From Deltaproteobacteria bacterium (GTDB taxonomy: Bacteria; Myxococcota_A; Polyangia; HGW-17; SLPX01), in NCBI GenBank assembly GCA_021162935.1, contig JAGGXR010000074.1:1-64000 (forward strand): a stretch of 64,000 nucleotides of DNA, given 5' to 3'. The notes beneath the pieces are model-generated. The model made no database searches and was not told the origin of the DNA. It was given only the letters and a program-made list of their open reading frames with translations. Below, in pieces: positions 5,062 through 63,047 of this stretch. Position 1 is the stretch's first letter, and every line of letters begins with the position of its first letter. The position numbers and the translations under genes were made by a program.

Positions 5062-5230
5062 GGCGGGATCACTATAGCCAGCAAACCCAGACAGGCAAGT
5101 CTCACCCCGATGAAAAATCGTTCAAAATTCAGCGAACAGGGATGGTTGCGCCGAAGGAGGAGTTGGAGTAGCGATCGAGCTTGAGGCAAAACACGCTCCG
5201 GTCCGAAGAACGCGGCACTGCAAAGGCGGC

Positions 5231-5338
5231 GAGCGAATCGAGCGAATCGAGCGAATCGAGCGAGTCGAGCGAGTCGAGCGAATCGAGCGAATCGAGCGAG
5301 TCGAGCGAACCGAGCGAGTCGAGCGAGTCGAGCGAATC
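5231..5338. repeat. 9-bp tandem repeat, 12 copies
   Basis: Twelve contiguous units of GAGCGARTC (R is A or G; one unit ends in ACC). The run sits between the divergent ptb and nucleotidyltransferase genes. A stop codon (TAG, 5346-5348) lies between the run and the downstream ATG in the same frame, so the repeat is not an N-terminal extension of that gene. Confidence 0.95.
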
Positions 5339-5408
5339 GAGAGCATAGACCGGGTCAAGGCCCGCCCGAACAGGACGGCCGGACCCTCCGGATCGAAAGA
5401 CGAAGTTC

Positions 5409-15638: not shown

Positions 15639-17699
15639 TTGACCAGTTTCTCGAACCTCGATCTCATTGACCCCTTGCAGCGCGCCATTGCGCACGAGGG
15701 ATACGATCAACCAACACCAATCCAGGCGCAGGCGATTCCACTCCTGCTCGAAGGCCGCGACGTGCTGGGCTGCGCCCAGACCGGAACGGGCAAGACCGCC
15801 GCCTTCGCGCTGCCGATCCTCCAGCATCTCGCCGAACGGCCAGCCCCCGAGGGCAAGCGGCGCATCCGCGTACTCGTTCTGTCACCGACCCGCGAACTGG
15901 CTGGCCAAATCGACGAGCGATTCGGCGCCTATGGCCGATACCTCCCCTTCCGCCACACCGTGATCTTCGGCGGCGTCAACCAAAGACGCCAGACGGACAT
16001 CCTGGATCGTGGCGTGGACATTCTCGTGGCGACTCCCGGCCGACTGCTCGACCTGGCGGGCCAGGGATACGTCCATCTGGCAGACGTGGAGTTCTTCGTG
16101 CTCGACGAAGCCGATCGGATGCTCGACATGGGCTTCATCCACGACATCCGACGCGTGCTCGGCATGATGCGGCATAAACGGCAGAACCTGCTGTTTTCGG
16201 CGACCATGCCGCGAACCATCGAATCTCTTGGCGCCGCCTTTCTGCAGGACCCGGCCTGGGTGGACATCAGCCCGAATGCAAAGACTGTCGATCAGATCAC
16301 GCAACGGGTCATGTACGTTGGACATGAAGACAAGCGACGGCTCATCGCCGACCTGCTCCGATCTGCCGAGACGGAACGGTCGCTCGTATTCACGAGGACG
16401 AAGCACGGCGCCAACCGGCTCGTCAAGCAACTCGACCGAGCCGGCATCAGCGCCGCCGCCATCCACGGCAACAAGAGCCAGGCGGCTCGTCGGCACGCCC
16501 TCGCCGGATTCCGCTCGGGCCAGATTCCAGTACTCGTGGCAACGGACCTGGCTGCTCGAGGCCTCGACGTGGAGGGGATCAGCCACGTGTTCAACTTCGA
16601 CCTGCCAAATGAACCCGAAACCTACGTGCACCGCATCGGACGAACGGGGCGAGCCGGGCGGGACGGCATCGCCATTTCGTTCTGCGACGAGACCGAAGGC
16701 TCCTACCTGCGCGACATCCAGAAACTCATCGGTTTCTCCGTCCAGGTCGAGCGGGACCACCCGTACCACGACGCCACCCTCGAACTCAGGCCGGGCGTCA
16801 ACCCGCCGCCACCCCCAGCGGCGCATTTTGGCCGTCAGGGGCGCGGCCAGCCGAGGGGCGGAACAGGATACCGATCAGGACAGGGAACGGGGCGCGGAAC
16901 AGGCCGTGAATCGGAACGCAGATGGGACAGCAACGACCGACCTCGCCGTGCCCAAGGCCAGATGGGCCGAGGCAGCAGGCCTGGCCAAGAAAGCGGCCGA
17001 GGGCCCAGGGCGGACCGAAGCGGCCGACCTGATCAGGGCAACAGCCGAGGTCCAGGCGACGACAGCCGACGTGAAAACGGCCGAGGCCCAGGTGGCTACG
17101 GCGGCGACAGCCGACGTGAAAACGGCCGAGGCCCAGGTGGCGACAACCAGCGCAGCAACAGCCGAGGCCCAGGTGGCTACGGCGGCGACACCCGACGTGA
17201 AAACGGCCGAGGCCCAGGTGGCTACGGCGGCGACACCCGACGCAGCAACAGCCGAGGCCCAAGTGGCGACAACCAGCGCAGCAACAGCCGAGGCCCAAGT
17301 GGCGACAACCAGCGCAGCAACAGCCGAGGCCCAGGTGGCGACAACCAGCGCAGCAACAGCCGAGGCCCAGGTGGCGACAACCAGCGCAGCAAGAGCCGAG
17401 GCCCAGGTGGCGACAACCAGCGCAGCAACAGCCGAGGCCCAGGTGGCGACAGCCAGCGCAGCAAGAGCCGAGGCCCAGGTGGCTACGGCGGCGACAGCCG
17501 ACGCAACAACAGCCGAGGCCCAGGTGGCGGCAACCAGCGCAGCAACAGCCGAGGCCCAACTGGCGGCAACCAGCGCAACAACAGCCGAGGCCCAACTGGT
17601 GGCAACCAGCGCAACAACAGCCGAGGCCCAACTGGTGGCAACCAGCGCAACAGTCGTCGTCGCAGTGGCGGACCAAATCGATCGTCTGCCGCCCGCTGA
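15639..17699 (+). CDS. rhlE: DEAD-box RNA helicase, RhlE type, with RGP-repeat tail
   Basis: 686 residues from a TTG at 15639, chosen because AAGGA lies seven bases upstream and the product then starts MTSFSNLDLIDPL, as RhlE proteins do. It has Q motif Gln29, Walker A AQTGTGKT (46-53), PTRELA, VLDEADRMLDMGF, SATMP and the C-terminal core's TDLAARGLD and HRIGRTGRAG. It unwinds short RNA duplexes with ATP and usually works in ribosome assembly and RNA decay. The last 240 or so residues are Arg/Gly/Asn/Ser repeats (SRGPGGDNQRSN-like), a basic disordered tail expected to bind RNA. The tail is encoded by near-perfect 36-bp repeats. Confidence 0.95.
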   Translation: MTSFSNLDLIDPLQRAIAHEGYDQPTPIQAQAIPLLLEGRDVLGCAQTGTGKTAAFALPILQHLAERPAPEGKRRIRVLVLSPTRELAGQIDERFGAYGRYLPFRHTVIFGGVNQRRQTDILDRGVDILVATPGRLLDLAGQGYVHLADVEFFVLDEADRMLDMGFIHDIRRVLGMMRHKRQNLLFSATMPRTIESLGAAFLQDPAWVDISPNAKTVDQITQRVMYVGHEDKRRLIADLLRSAETERSLVFTRTKHGANRLVKQLDRAGISAAAIHGNKSQAARRHALAGFRSGQIPVLVATDLAARGLDVEGISHVFNFDLPNEPETYVHRIGRTGRAGRDGIAISFCDETEGSYLRDIQKLIGFSVQVERDHPYHDATLELRPGVNPPPPPAAHFGRQGRGQPRGGTGYRSGQGTGRGTGRESERRWDSNDRPRRAQGQMGRGSRPGQESGRGPRADRSGRPDQGNSRGPGDDSRRENGRGPGGYGGDSRRENGRGPGGDNQRSNSRGPGGYGGDTRRENGRGPGGYGGDTRRSNSRGPSGDNQRSNSRGPSGDNQRSNSRGPGGDNQRSNSRGPGGDNQRSKSRGPGGDNQRSNSRGPGGDSQRSKSRGPGGYGGDSRRNNSRGPGGGNQRSNSRGPTGGNQRNNSRGPTGGNQRNNSRGPTGGNQRNSRRRSGGPNRSSAAR
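17030..17690 (+). repeat. Coding tandem repeats of the helicase tail
   Basis: A run of 36-bp units, with some longer variants, built on AACAGCCGAGGCCCAGGTGG. The unit is a multiple of three, so copy changes keep the frame. The other forward frame and the reverse strand also stay open over this run, giving spurious Ala/Glu- and Cys-rich ORFs. Confidence 0.9.
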
Positions 17700-32017: not shown

Positions 32018-33700
32018 TCAACGAGAGACGTCGGCATAGGCGCCGATGTCTTCGAACCCTCCACCTGAAGTGGGATGGAGAAAATCAGACGAATCGGGAT
32101 CCGTGCTGATAAACGTCACGTCCCCTTCCCTGTTCCAGGAATTGTCGTCAAAAGTCCCCGATGAGGAATGGAGCCTTCCTCCGTCCGCCGCCAGGGCGAT
32201 GTTGTGGTCCAGGGTCGTCGTGTCTCCAGACGCAAACTCGACCGCCCCGTTATGATAGGACGTGTTGTAGGAAAAGGTCACGTCCACGCCAGAGTTGTAC
32301 GTAAAACCCCGTTTGACGTTCTCATAGGCGATGCAATGCGCCACCACGGCACCTTCGGAGGGTGGCTGACCTCCGGCCTTGAAGCCGTTCCCGTTCCCAT
32401 TCGTGCCATAGCCGTTGGAATACGCCATGCTGAACGCAAAAGTCGTGTGGGTGGAACGCCAGCAATCAAACCCGTCGTCCGAGTTGTGGTAGGAAAGACA
32501 ATGTTTTATGACATTTCCTTCGCCCGACGAGATGGAAACCCCATCTGCATTGTCTCCGTCGTTGAACCCCGGAATAGCTGTCCCTTCGTCGTAATTGTCG
32601 TGCACGATACAATTGCGAAGCACATTGTAGGATCCATATGCGCCGTAAGGGAATTCATCGTAGGGGCTGACGATCTGGATTCCAGTCAGGCCGTTATGAT
32701 GGCTTTCTATGCCGTCGACCAAGTTATGACAGCCACGAATATAGAGTCCCTGTCGCGGCATATTGCGAATCTCGATACGCCTGAAGACATTGTAGTGGGC
32801 ATAGATCCGGAGAAAAACGTCGTCGCCCACGTTATTGCTCGCCCCGTCCAGTATGGCCTGTTCACCGGGATAGCTCTCGAATACGATGGGATGGTCCTCA
32901 GTGCCGTCCACACGGAGATTCCAAGAATGATCGATGTCGTAGACACCGTCGCGCAAAAAAACCACGTCTCCCGGTTCGACGACGTCCAGGACCGTCCAGA
33001 GATCACAGGGATGGGCCTCGGTGCAGTCGGTGCCCTCGCCGTCTGGCGCAACGAACAAGGTACCGTCTGCAACCGGCGTCGAATCCGTGGGCAAAGGACC
33101 GATGGTCTGATCGTCCGACACACATGACAGTTCGTCGGCATGATAACCATCTTCGCATTCGCAGGCGGCCTGGCCGTCGGTCACCACGCAAGTCCCATGC
33201 CCCGAACAGTCCACGCCGTCACAAGTATCGGCGGCATCCTCCAGGCAGGCAAGGCCTTCGGCATGGTAGCCGTCCTCGCATTCGCAGGCGGCCTGCCCAT
33301 CGGTCACCACGCAAGTCCCGTGTCCCGAGCAGTCCACGCCGTCACAAGTATCGGCCGTATCCTCCAGGCAGGCAAGGCCTTCGGCATGGTAGCCGTCCTC
33401 GCATTCGCACGAGGCCTGGCCGTCGGTCACAACACAGGTTCCATGCCCTGAACAATTCTGCCCGATGCATGCATCGGGAACGACACAAATTCGCTCCTCG
33501 TTGCATTCCAGGCCCACCTCGCAGGTACCGTCCTCGAAACAAGCCTCCCCTTCCTGCCCCTTGCCCGGACCAGAGCCGGAATCATCGGAACAGGCACCGA
33601 TCAGACCCAGGCCCGCAGCACCCCAAACCAACATGGGGACCATCAGCCCCCACAAAAAACCACCTGTCGCCCGCCTACGAGATTCGATCTTCCTGTGCAT
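32018..33700 (-). CDS. PL9-like polysaccharide lyase lipoprotein with three EGF-like repeats
   Basis: 560 residues from the ATG at 33700, with GGGAGCGG upstream. The signal peptide ends in IGAC. Three EGF-like modules of 41 residues (SGHGTCVVTDGQA...) follow. The catalytic part is a right-handed beta-helix: GDVVFLRDGVYDI, EDHPIVFESYPGEQAILDG, then NSDDGFDCWRS and NGNGFKAGG. These last two match the PL9 signature, where the Asp cluster binds calcium and the Lys is the base. It should cleave uronate polysaccharides such as pectate at the cell surface. Confidence in the lyase family is good; substrate is unknown. Confidence 0.8.
   Translation of the reverse strand: MHRKIESRRRATGGFLWGLMVPMLVWGAAGLGLIGACSDDSGSGPGKGQEGEACFEDGTCEVGLECNEERICVVPDACIGQNCSGHGTCVVTDGQASCECEDGYHAEGLACLEDTADTCDGVDCSGHGTCVVTDGQAACECEDGYHAEGLACLEDAADTCDGVDCSGHGTCVVTDGQAACECEDGYHADELSCVSDDQTIGPLPTDSTPVADGTLFVAPDGEGTDCTEAHPCDLWTVLDVVEPGDVVFLRDGVYDIDHSWNLRVDGTEDHPIVFESYPGEQAILDGASNNVGDDVFLRIYAHYNVFRRIEIRNMPRQGLYIRGCHNLVDGIESHHNGLTGIQIVSPYDEFPYGAYGSYNVLRNCIVHDNYDEGTAIPGFNDGDNADGVSISSGEGNVIKHCLSYHNSDDGFDCWRSTHTTFAFSMAYSNGYGTNGNGNGFKAGGQPPSEGAVVAHCIAYENVKRGFTYNSGVDVTFSYNTSYHNGAVEFASGDTTTLDHNIALAADGGRLHSSSGTFDDNSWNREGDVTFISTDPDSSDFLHPTSGGGFEDIGAYADVSR
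33136..33455. repeat. 123-bp coding repeat encoding EGF modules
   Basis: Three head-to-tail copies at 123-bp spacing, each encoding one 41-residue EGF-like module of the PL9-like lipoprotein. Copies differ at few positions, so the expansion is recent. Confidence 0.92.
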
Positions 33701-54536: not shown

Positions 54537-56159
54537 ATGCGCCTGTCCATCGCCACCAAAGTATTCATGGGATTCATTGCCGTCATGGTCCTGTTCGGCG
54601 GCGTTTCCACGTACAGCCTGATCCGGATGCACCAGGTCCAAGAAGACCTCCGAGTCCTCAATCGGGTCTATCTGCGCCTCAACGAGGCCTACGTACAGCT
54701 CAACCTCACCATGACCGAGGTCCACACCCTGCAAAACAACCTCATCAACCTTCTGGATTCCATGCCCGAAGGTCGCAACCCGGTCATGGTGGTCCGTTGG
54801 ATTCGAATGGCCAGAAAACATCGCATCAAGCGAATCAGCCAGGCCATTCGCGTCGCCCGACACGCGGCAACCCTGACGCCGCCGCGACGAGACGCCGTGT
54901 TCATCGAGCATCTGATCAAGGAACTGACAAGCATACGAGCCGGTTTCAAGGCGACCGACCCACTCTACGACCGGCTCTTCGATCACACCCAAGCGAACCC
55001 AGGGCAGCCTCTGCCCGCTCAAATCCAGGTCACGGGATCCGGTCTACGCAGACACGAACACTCGGTTTTTACGACCCTGCGAACGCTCAGTAACCAGCTC
55101 CGCCAACGGCTGTCCGGAAACCTGGTCCCTGCCGTCCTCAGAACCGCCACGCGACTGGAACGCACCGAGACGAGAGCCTTCTATGCCACCATGGTTTGGG
55201 TGGTCCTGGCCGTCATCGTGGGTCTCATCCTGACTTGGATGAGCCAGCTCACCCTCCGTCCCCTGGCCAAGCTGGCCGACGACGCCCGGCGCGTCGCACG
55301 AGGTGAATACGAACTGGACATCCAGGTCCGTTCCCACGACGAAGTGGGCAGTCTGGCCCGCGAGTTCAAACAAATGGCGGATGCGCTCCGTGAACGAGAA
55401 CGACGCCTCATCGAAACGGAACGGATCGCAGCCCGATCCGAACGCATGGCGGTCATGGGCCATCTGGCCGCCCAGATCACGCATGAAATTCGAAACCCCC
55501 TGTCCGCCATCGGACTGAATGCAGAAATGCTCGAAGAGGAACTCTCCCAGACCGATCTGGACCGAGACACCGTGGATCTGACCAGACGCATCCAGAAAGA
55601 GGTCGATCGTCTCACGGATATCACGGAGGAATACCTCCAGTTCGCTCGCCTGCCACGACCGAAACTCGACATGGAGCAGCCGGACGAGGTCGTGCGACAG
55701 ACCTGCGCCCTCGTGCAGGAAGATTTTTCCCAGGCAGGCGTCCAAATCATCATCCAGGCAGCACCTGACCTGCCGACCATTCCCATGGACGAAAACCAGA
55801 TCCGACAGGCCGTACTCAACATCATCAAGAATGCCAAAGAAGCCATGGATCGCGGAGGCACCATCCAGGTGCATATCAACCAGACCACGATGCCCCAGGG
55901 TGAGGTCACTGAAGGCAGACCGATTGGTTCGATCCCGGCCATCGAGATCCGCATCGACGACGACGGCCCGGGCATCCCTGAAGAGAGCCTGCAGCAACTC
56001 TTCGAGCCCTTCTATTCCACGAAAGATAGGGGGACCGGGCTGGGACTTGCCATCACCGCCCAGATCATCTCGGAACACGGCGGCACCCTGGCCGCAGCCA
56101 ACGCGCCCGAAGGCGGCGCATCGTTCCGCATCCTGATCCCCCAAAAACAAAAGGGGTAG
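54537..56159 (+). CDS. Membrane sensor histidine kinase (HAMP, HisKA, HATPase)
   Basis: 540 residues, ATG three bases after the preceding stop. Helix (VFMGFIAVMVLFGGVSTYSL), a helical extracytoplasmic domain of about 170 residues (four-helix-bundle-like), helix (TMVWVVLAVIVGLILTWM), HAMP (LRPLAKLADDARRVARGEYE), H-box QITHEIRNPLSAIGL, N-box NIIKNAKEAM, DDDGPGIP and RGTGLGLAI. Typical of NtrB/ZraS-type kinases. No response regulator is encoded nearby. The stop codon abuts the palindromic element at 56158. Confidence 0.95.
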   Translation: MRLSIATKVFMGFIAVMVLFGGVSTYSLIRMHQVQEDLRVLNRVYLRLNEAYVQLNLTMTEVHTLQNNLINLLDSMPEGRNPVMVVRWIRMARKHRIKRISQAIRVARHAATLTPPRRDAVFIEHLIKELTSIRAGFKATDPLYDRLFDHTQANPGQPLPAQIQVTGSGLRRHEHSVFTTLRTLSNQLRQRLSGNLVPAVLRTATRLERTETRAFYATMVWVVLAVIVGLILTWMSQLTLRPLAKLADDARRVARGEYELDIQVRSHDEVGSLAREFKQMADALRERERRLIETERIAARSERMAVMGHLAAQITHEIRNPLSAIGLNAEMLEEELSQTDLDRDTVDLTRRIQKEVDRLTDITEEYLQFARLPRPKLDMEQPDEVVRQTCALVQEDFSQAGVQIIIQAAPDLPTIPMDENQIRQAVLNIIKNAKEAMDRGGTIQVHINQTTMPQGEVTEGRPIGSIPAIEIRIDDDGPGIPEESLQQLFEPFYSTKDRGTGLGLAITAQIISEHGGTLAAANAPEGGASFRILIPQKQKG

Positions 56160-56318
56160 GAGGCTGTTCAAAATAGGGTTGCCAATTTGGGGCGTGGAGG
56201 CGCCCGTCTGGCACGAAGCGACGAGGGCGCGTACCGGGTGGTACGCAACCGAGGAGCGACAAAGCCAGGCGGGATGGGTCGGCGTTCCAGATGGCAGATT
56301 TATTCTGATCAGCCTCCT
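56158..56318. repeat. 161-bp near-palindromic element between convergent stop codons
   Basis: The ends are inverted repeats: AGGAGGCTGTTCAAAATA on the left, and the right end reads AGGAGGCTGATCAGAATA on the other strand. Further matching blocks (TGCCA, CTGGC) run inward to an apical perfect hairpin GCGTACC-GGGT-GGTACGC (56230-56247). The whole unit can fold into one long stem. It starts inside the kinase stop (TAG, 56157-56159) and ends on the racemase stop (56318-56320). A partial copy is at 63001. It may be a MITE or REP-like element serving as a bidirectional terminator. Confidence 0.8.
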
Positions 56319-57478
56319 TAGACCACGACCCTGGGGATGCCGGGACGGATTCTGGCCACCACCTCATAGTTGATGCTCCCCACCATCTCGGCGAGTTCAT
56401 CCGCGGTCACGGCGTCGTTTCCCTGTCCGCCCAGAAGGACCACCTCTTCTTCGGGTTGGACGCCGGGGATGTCGGTAACGTCCACCATGAAAAGGTTCAT
56501 GCAGATTCGACCACGCACGGGCGCTCGACGGCCTTGGATCAGAACATGACCTCGATTCGAGAGGTGACGATCGTATCCGTCCGAGTACCCCACGGGCAGC
56601 ACGGCGATCTTGGTCTCACGCGTGGTCAGGTACGTGCCGCCATAGCCGACGCGCCGCCCGGCCGCCACGGTCTTCACCTGGCTGACCCGACACTTCCAGG
56701 TAAGCACGGGATGCAGGCCGTCTGCCTCCTCGCGCCCATGTTCCATCAGAAAGGAAAGGAGCGTCTCCTTAGAGGGCCACAGTCCATACTGGCTGATACC
56801 CAACCGGACCATGGATCCGTAGGTCCTCGAAAAGAGCAGGGACGCCGCACTGCAGGCACTGTGCACCTTGGAAAACGACAGTCCCAAGGAACGCGCCGTC
56901 TCCAAGGCGTCTTCGAAGAGCGTCATCTGCGACAGGGCATAGTCATGTCTGGTCGTGTCTTCGATGTTCGCAAAATGGGTATAGATGCCCTCGGGCACAC
57001 AGTGACTGCAATCAGCCAATGCACCCAGGAAGGCGTGCAGTTCCGCCCCTTCGAGGCCCTGACGGTAGGTCCCGGTCTCCACCTTCACGTGGACCCGGGC
57101 CCGACGTTGCTGATGCGCCGCCTGCCGATTCAACTCGGCGAGACTGTCCCTGTCGTAGACCACCTGTCCCAAACCGAGCGCCACCACTTCGCCCAATCGG
57201 CTCTTCGGCGTGTAACCGAGGATCAGAATGTCGCGACTCACACCCCAGGATCGAAGAACGGCGGCCTCGTCCAGACTATGGACGGCGAAGGAGTTCACGC
57301 CTGCGTCCAGCGCCATGGATACGATGGGCTCGACCCCGTGCCCATAAGCATTCGCCTTGACCACCGCGGAAATCTCACGGTCGCCCAACAGGCGTCTGAA
57401 GAACCAGATGTTGCCCTCGTAGGCGCTTCGGTCCAATTCGATCCACTGATTCCAACTCGACCGATCCATCGGAGCCAT
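56318..57478 (-). CDS. alr: Alanine racemase
   Basis: 386 residues from the ATG at 57478, chosen for AGGA six bases upstream and the conserved start WIELDRSAYEGNI; the frame is open to 57640. The PLP lysine is in AVVKANAYGHG. SLDEAAVLR, GIYTHFANIED, MVRLGISQYGLWPS, the catalytic-Tyr region RVGYGGTYLTT, VLPVGYSDGYDR and RGRICMNLFMVDVTD are all present. It makes D-alanine for peptidoglycan in the cytoplasm. Confidence 0.94.
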   Translation of the reverse strand: MAPMDRSSWNQWIELDRSAYEGNIWFFRRLLGDREISAVVKANAYGHGVEPIVSMALDAGVNSFAVHSLDEAAVLRSWGVSRDILILGYTPKSRLGEVVALGLGQVVYDRDSLAELNRQAAHQQRRARVHVKVETGTYRQGLEGAELHAFLGALADCSHCVPEGIYTHFANIEDTTRHDYALSQMTLFEDALETARSLGLSFSKVHSACSAASLLFSRTYGSMVRLGISQYGLWPSKETLLSFLMEHGREEADGLHPVLTWKCRVSQVKTVAAGRRVGYGGTYLTTRETKIAVLPVGYSDGYDRHLSNRGHVLIQGRRAPVRGRICMNLFMVDVTDIPGVQPEEEVVLLGGQGNDAVTADELAEMVGSINYEVVARIRPGIPRVVV

Positions 57479-62122: not shown

Positions 62123-63001
62123 ATGAAAGACAAGACGGTCGTCACAGTCATCCACCAGTTGCCGAGCAAGGTGACCTCCCGCAAGGAAGCCTGTCTTGTC
62201 GTGATCTATGGACCGGACCTCGGAAAAAAGTTCAACCTGGAGGGGCCGTCGTACATCATCGGACGCTCCTCGAAATGCGACATTCAGATCGACCAGGAAT
62301 CCGTGAGCCGGAACCACGCAAAGGTGATAAACAGCGGAAAGACTGCCATCATGCGGGATCTCGGTTCAACGAACGGCACCTATGTCAACGACCAACTCAT
62401 CGATGAACGGGTTCTTCGCGACGGCGACTTCGTCAAGATCGGTCGGACCATCTTCAAATTCCTTTCGGGCGACAACATCGAACACGCCTACCATGAAGAA
62501 ATTTACCGATTGACCACCGTGGACGGCTTGACCCAAGTCTACAACAAGCGGTATCTCATGGAGACCTTGGACCGCGAGATCGGCCGGGCCCACCGATATG
62601 GGCGGCCCTTGTCGATCATCATGTTCGACATCGACCACTTCAAGAACATCAATGACACGTACGGCCACCTTGCTGGCGACTACGTCCTCAAGGAAATGTC
62701 CCAGACCATCAAGGCAAGCATCCGCCGCGAGGACATCATGGGGCGATACGGCGGCGAAGAATTCGTGGTCGCCCTGCCGGAAATCGACCAGTACAACGCC
62801 ATGGTCTTCGCAGAAAAGGTGCGTCGTCTCGTGGAACGGCACCGATTCCTGTTCGAGGATGTGATCATCAAGGTCACCATCAGCATCGGCGTCTCCGCAT
62901 CCTGGCCCGAGCTTCGGTCCCCGGAAGAATTCATCAAGAAGGCAGATATCAACCTCTACAAGGCCAAGAACTCGGGCAGAAACCGCTGCATCGGCGACTA
63001 A
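62123..63001 (+). CDS. FHA-GGDEF diguanylate cyclase
   Basis: 292 residues from the ATG at 62123, which follows AAGGG. FHA domain (about 30-120): [37 protein letters not shown], the phosphothreonine-binding loops. GGDEF domain (about 135-290): [20 protein letters not shown], active site [16 protein letters not shown] and [15 protein letters not shown]. An RxxD inhibitory site (RRED) lies five residues before GGEEF, so product feedback is likely. It makes cyclic di-GMP, probably controlled by binding a phosphorylated protein such as a Ser/Thr-kinase substrate. Confidence 0.96.
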
Positions 63002-63047
63002 GGAGTCTATTCAAAATAGGGTTGCCAATTTGGGGCGTCGAGGCGCC
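63001..63047. repeat. Partial second copy of the palindromic element
   Basis: Aligns to 56158-56204 over 47 bases with three mismatches; the inner 38 bases (from TTCAAAATAGGGTTGCCAAT) have one mismatch. Like the first copy it begins in the last base(s) of a stop codon. After 63047 the sequences part and no right arm is visible before the next gene. Confidence 0.9.

Follow-up and report, generated by a model that had tools for sequence, protein, structure and literature searches.

A 159-bp Hairpin Element between Convergent Stop Codons Has the Anatomy of a Non-autonomous Transposon and Carries a Structured Core Found in Several Phyla

Results

The Locus and Its Hairpin

The stretch of DNA analyzed here (64,000 nucleotides, referred to as the window) comprises positions 1 to 64,000 of contig JAGGXR010000074.1 from a Deltaproteobacteria bacterium (Myxococcota_A, Polyangia; assembly GCA_021162935.1). 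Within it, a histidine kinase gene and an alanine racemase gene converge on a long hairpin element that fills the space between them. The features of the locus are as follows.

54537 to 56159, plus strand: histidine kinase gene (HAMP, HisKA, and HATPase_c domains), the TAG stop of which is shared with the leading G of the element
56156 to 56158, no strand: left target-site copy, now GTA, differing by one base from the right copy TTA
56159 to 56317, plus strand: full element, GGAGGCTG...CAGCCTCC, a 159-bp near-palindrome; the core strand as it stands on the plus strand of the window is orientation 2
56159 to 56175, plus strand: left terminal inverted repeat, GGAGGCTGTTCAAAATA
56190 to 56285, minus strand: conserved structured core, matching covariance model R1 with an E value of 1.1e-15
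56301 to 56317, minus strand: right terminal inverted repeat, GGAGGCTGATCAGAATA
56318 to 56320, no strand: right target-site copy, TTA; read on the minus strand, this triplet is the racemase stop TAA
56318 to 57640, minus strand: alanine racemase gene containing its two domains in full; translation may in fact begin inside the open reading frame

A preliminary description of this DNA had placed a 161-bp hairpin at 56158 to 56318, beginning in the kinase stop codon and ending on that of the racemase. The hairpin was retained, and its bounds were corrected to 56159 and 56317 by alignment with copies in the same genome. The left target-site copy ends with base 56158, and the right copy starts with 56318. 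The kinase stop (56157 to 56159) consists of two flank bases followed by the first G of the element, whereas the racemase stop (56318 to 56320, TTA on the plus strand and TAA on the minus strand) lies wholly outside it. Folding of the 161 bases yielded a single long hairpin of -94.1 kcal/mol compared with a mean of -57.7 kcal/mol for shuffled sequences (z -9.5); none of 200 shuffles was equally stable, which bears out the inverted ends and long hairpin originally proposed. The 159-bp element has no coding capacity.

The C-terminal domains of both flanking genes, the kinase on the plus strand and the racemase on the minus strand, are complete. When the flanks were joined on one TTA, the sequence CAA AAG GGT TAG was obtained, in which the kinase end QKQKG* is unchanged and the racemase terminates at the same TAA. 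Insertion at a convergent “TTAG” overlap would therefore have changed neither protein.

Copies and Derivatives in the Same Genome

In this genome, which measures 5.13 Mb in 168 contigs, the covariance model detected approximately 40 core-bearing copies and BLAST a similar number; 15 copies other than that at 56159 to 56317 are at least 91% identical to it. The GGAGGCTG...CAGCCTCC terminal inverted repeats are present in nearly all copies. The element thus belongs to a small mobile family, as had been suggested, with ∼40 copies, terminal inverted repeats, TNA duplications (where N is any base), and tandem, half, and repeat-only derivatives. Full-length copies besides this one (about 30–40) are present, with enrichment precisely at the 3′ ends of genes; neither outcome named as refuting the preliminary description was therefore obtained.

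The sequence at 63 kb, previously taken as a second copy, is related but consists of a truncated left arm only (63002 to 63047, plus strand), positioned directly 3′ of the TAA stop (62999 to 63001) of a GGDEF gene. The match is good to about 63047, with a doubtful tail past it. An adjacent pair of copies (L004) and elements of 41–42 bp made of the terminal inverted repeats only also occur in this genome, as do five half-elements, four right and one left, broken a few bases from the hairpin tip.

L209, 1624 to 1707: half-element
L210, 1631 to 1715: half-element
L211, 1624 to 1710: half-element
L212, reverse strand: half-element
G000:C34, 9231 to 9303: half-element

All five stop near the tip, as though this were a preferred breakpoint, perhaps through cruciform or hairpin cleavage. 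The half-elements were also considered as ends of a full-length insertion sequence (IS), which was rejected given that the sequences past the hairpin tip are mutually unrelated. In a subfamily of the same genome (L020, L026, L028, and L030), the same core is bounded by GTCGGCTG...CAGCCGAC rather than GGAGGCTG...CAGCCTCC, and the flanks fit TNA less well.

Target-site Duplications

Inspection of the triplets directly outside GGAGG..CCTCC revealed that they are mostly TNA in the copies of this genome. Left and right triplets were identical in 13 of 37 elements compared with 6.3 when right flanks were shuffled among elements with composition kept (p 0.0026). Elements with GG/GT-type ends in other genomes gave identical triplets in 27 of 41 cases against 11.0 after shuffling, a value reached in none of 5000 shuffles. 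Elements of a sister group, the ends of which are GCAG or GGAGCC, were flanked by a duplication of 4 bp, in most cases CTAG (14 of 26 versus 8.9, p 0.0002). Reverse-complement flank matches were seen in just 1 of the 37 copies; the duplications are therefore direct. Copies arranged back to back in tandem were observed at L174 (genome G028) and at G082:C6:151642-151845. A single TTA is shared in L174, as expected if the duplicated target of an earlier copy receives a new one.

Enrichment at Stop Codons

At least 13 of the 37 copies have a junction that coincides exactly with the stop codon of a called gene. With simple gene calls that surely missed some genes, the null rates for stop junctions are approximate: 27 of 372 non-coding TNA sites in the window are stop-junction positions (7.3%, binomial p 1e-6), and the proportion was 27 of 167 when only sites no farther than 200 bp from the end of a gene were counted (p 0.004). 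In other genomes, approximately one-third of the genes directed toward a copy also end no more than 2 bases from its estimated edge. Where a clear Pfam domain is present, junction genes are mostly complete or nearly so, including those for DapA, SecF, OmpA, a CoA-transferase, DUF444, a Na/Ca exchanger, and DnaG with its DnaB-binding domain. Truncation is therefore not the main cause of the enrichment.

A Structured Core Shared across Phyla

Scanning of GTDB species genomes with a pattern located the ∼95-nucleotide core in at least 117 stretches, mostly in metagenome-assembled genomes (MAGs) of Acidobacteriota. Other carriers among the matches listed were Gammaproteobacteria (Sedimenticola and Chromatiales), Myxococcales, one Gemmatimonadetes, and one deltaproteobacterial MAG. 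Three of the matches (L045, L063, and L085) appear to be due to chance, and a binning error may lie behind an individual MAG record but less plausibly behind so many.

The common architecture is GATSCATC, a 9-bp stem, NGCGTTGC, a variable hairpin, GCGCCTT, a stem, and GGCGCCTCG. In 26 distinct sequences found by the covariance model rather than by the pattern, 212 of 234 stem positions were paired compared with 133 after shuffling (0 of 2000 shuffles), in a count that ignores kinship and with a model that itself contains these pairs. Most stem positions show several pair types, indicative of compensatory change, and the unpaired motifs are nearly constant. The outer 17–20 bp vary between groups, and the core is kept. 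On the sequences compared, the interior is better conserved than the ends expected to be bound by a transposase, the opposite of the pattern that simple internal deletion should leave in a miniature inverted-repeat transposable element (MITE).

Searches of Rfam gave no match in the window, the weak matches being far below gathering scores. Wobble pairs favored one strand by 9 to 1 in the unselected sample and were balanced (12 versus 11) in the pattern-selected sample at fixed register. The asymmetry had been strong in a first count with floating register and is no more than a hint. Enlarged copies of 208–416 bp were observed in a Sedimenticola MAG (G218, L226–L231), with extra small palindromes at a fixed place in the core loop; the hairpin of these copies grows by modules, and TNA duplications are kept.

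Terminal Repeats and Candidate Vehicles

In a relative genome (G058), the ends AGGAGCCTGACCCAAGAC lie 1405 bp apart around a 415-residue transposase of the IS1182 family (NF033551, E value 1e-90; PF05598 and PF01609), with CTAG on both sides. Core-bearing elements of G058 have the same terminal repeats and CTAG duplication as this IS. The MITE and the IS have only about the outer 22 bp in common, and the IS is without the core. An internal-deletion test, applied to the G058 pair only, showed that the MITE interior is not homologous to the IS beyond the terminal repeat. Elements of 52–87 bp that are ends and little else also exist. Minimal elements of 42–87 bp were recorded at the following places.

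G127:C55, 182175 to 182226
G127:C73, 140 to 202 and 226057 to 226115
G058:C13, 33026 to 33112
G000:C100, 51084 to 51125

They consist of two terminal repeats and little else, and target duplications were present in those read. The repeat-only elements (41–87 bp) thus indicate that the ends are common to derivatives with quite different interiors.

Several candidate vehicles were rejected. A 3.2-kb pair of terminal inverted repeats in a Sedimenticola MAG encloses two membrane-protein-like genes and no recognizable transposase, and transposase loci of G002, G153, G198, and G222 are without the terminal inverted repeats of those genomes. Plasmid and phage records gave no match to the core consensus, and IMG/VR gave 0 and 1 match; phages are therefore not an evident vehicle.

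Elsewhere in the window, tandem repeats at 17038 to 17688, 5230 to 5346, and 33114 to 33482 have periods of 36, 9, and 123 bp, respectively, all multiples of three.

Discussion

By its anatomy, the element at 56159 to 56317 is a MITE, a non-autonomous transposon. The data are best explained, with high confidence, by insertion at TNA through a DDE-type transposase acting in trans, with copies in stop codons surviving. Such an enzyme would recognize the ∼17–20-bp terminal repeats, and each insertion would duplicate three bases. The codons TAA and TGA are themselves TNA, as are their complements TTA and TCA, and TAG is read where TTA is joined to the leading G of an element; a duplicated TAA or TGA would thus restore the stop, which accounts for the exact fit between the two genes. 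Insertion into a stop codon would leave the protein unchanged, and such copies would survive in a compact genome. The target at this locus would have been the overlapping convergent stops of the kinase and racemase genes (“TTAG”), with both ends kept. Filtering by survival is probably the main cause of the enrichment at stops, and a share of it could come from a true insertion preference.

Several observations weigh against this account. No complete element with this terminal inverted repeat, and no autonomous partner, was found in the genome itself with the DDE_Tnp_1, DUF4096, and IS1182 models; mobilization in trans and the type of transposase in this genome are inferred. G028 and G218, both rich in TNA-type copies, likewise gave no DDE_Tnp_1 match at an E value of 1e-6, so another transposase family may serve the TNA type. 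The single TTAG target, reconstructed from the element's own flanks, is presumptive, and the left target copy is GTA, not TTA, which is taken as a later mutation. Finally, conservation of the core across phyla is left unexplained by a plain MITE model.

Other explanations were weighed for the fit between the stops. The preliminary description had the hairpin probably serving both genes as 3′ end and terminator, and a host might indeed keep a bidirectional terminator or 3′-end protecting hairpin because it terminates or stabilizes both transcripts. A strong hairpin flush with two convergent genes, in a family generally enriched at gene 3′ ends, is what this predicts, but intrinsic terminators have a T run downstream of a GC-rich stem, and no such T-tract was found on either strand between 55900 and 56600. 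Nor was there an orientation bias of the kind expected for RNA function in a 3′-untranslated region: among tandem gene arrangements, with flanking genes scored by codon usage, the core was sense to the preceding gene in 32 cases and antisense in 29. The family is also patchy, occurring in 40 of 189 genomes of the phylum, and target duplication already accounts for the fit. A host-serving role is therefore improbable, although the element may have a passive effect on mRNA 3′ ends. Even less probable is that copies landed inside reading frames, the element edge supplying a new stop and shortening the genes. In one frame, a TNA-G junction does read as a stop, and some junction genes have no Pfam domain by which to be judged, but the domains of most reach the protein end or nearly so, and the joined flanks at this locus yield the same kinase stop without the element.

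The core raises a separate question. One tentative suggestion is that a widely shared factor binds the core, which would be a conserved structured module of RNA or single-stranded DNA that travels within the terminal repeats of different transposases. Its retention across phyla while terminal repeats differ, the compensatory stem changes beside fixed unpaired motifs, the lack of a core in the sole IS found with matching ends, and the 9 to 1 wobble asymmetry in the sample not selected by pattern are consistent with this, but no factor is known, the asymmetry vanished in the pattern-selected sample, and Rfam offered no match. Carrying a similarly limited degree of confidence is the proposal that the core is an independent satellite, spread over several phyla by changing transposase vehicles and resting harmlessly on stop codons. 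Our best guess is that the core serves transposition or maintenance of the element itself, as a folded single strand or cruciform, and not the neighboring genes.

On the MITE account, one rule, that a TNA duplication can be a stop codon, would explain how mobile repeats come to lie flush with stops without damage. A structured core in MITEs of several phyla with differing ends is hard to square with MITEs as merely deleted ISs, and what conserves the interior of a MITE becomes a directly testable question.

Comparison with Known Systems

The family had been likened to repetitive extragenic palindromic (REP) sequences. Like REPs, bacterial interspersed mosaic elements, and REPINs (PMC3733652, PMC2817692, PMC3116915), it is palindromic, intergenic, and present in many copies, and those repeats have often been proposed as terminators or mRNA stabilizers (PMC3733652, PMC2817692, PMC3116915). 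REPs are 20–40-bp units with GTAG or CGTC tags (PMC3733652) and are associated with tyrosine transposases (PMC2817692), whereas the present unit is 159 bp long with terminal repeats and TNA duplications, the anatomy of a MITE; the REP label assigned it to the wrong class.

Bacterial MITEs such as Chunjie of Geobacter uraniireducens and QMITE1 and QMITE2 of Coxiella burnetii (PMC10969869, PMC5896051) are likewise short and gene-less, form stable hairpins, and number in the tens, with terminal inverted repeats inside target duplications. QMITE2 resides mainly in 3′-untranslated and intergenic regions (PMC10969869, PMC5896051). As described, it is set apart by duplications of 7–11 nucleotides with variable sequence and an internal GTAG REP, in contrast to the 3-bp TNA (CTAG in the sister group) and the core common to several phyla seen here. 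MITEPye1 of Paracoccus yeei (PMC11578231), compared by description only, resembles the CTAG subgroup of G058 and G127 in its IS1182-like ends, 4-bp duplications, and long stem-loop; it has 1–3 chromosomal copies, and no cross-phylum core is described for it. The class 4 multicopy sequences of Geobacter metallireducens, characterized as CCYTC pentanucleotide repeats (PMC2700814), could be an earlier sighting, a comparison likewise made from description only. Searches of the literature with core strings and related terms found no published description of the core or the element. As far as that literature shows, what is new relative to these systems is a structured core shared across phyla inside different terminal repeats.
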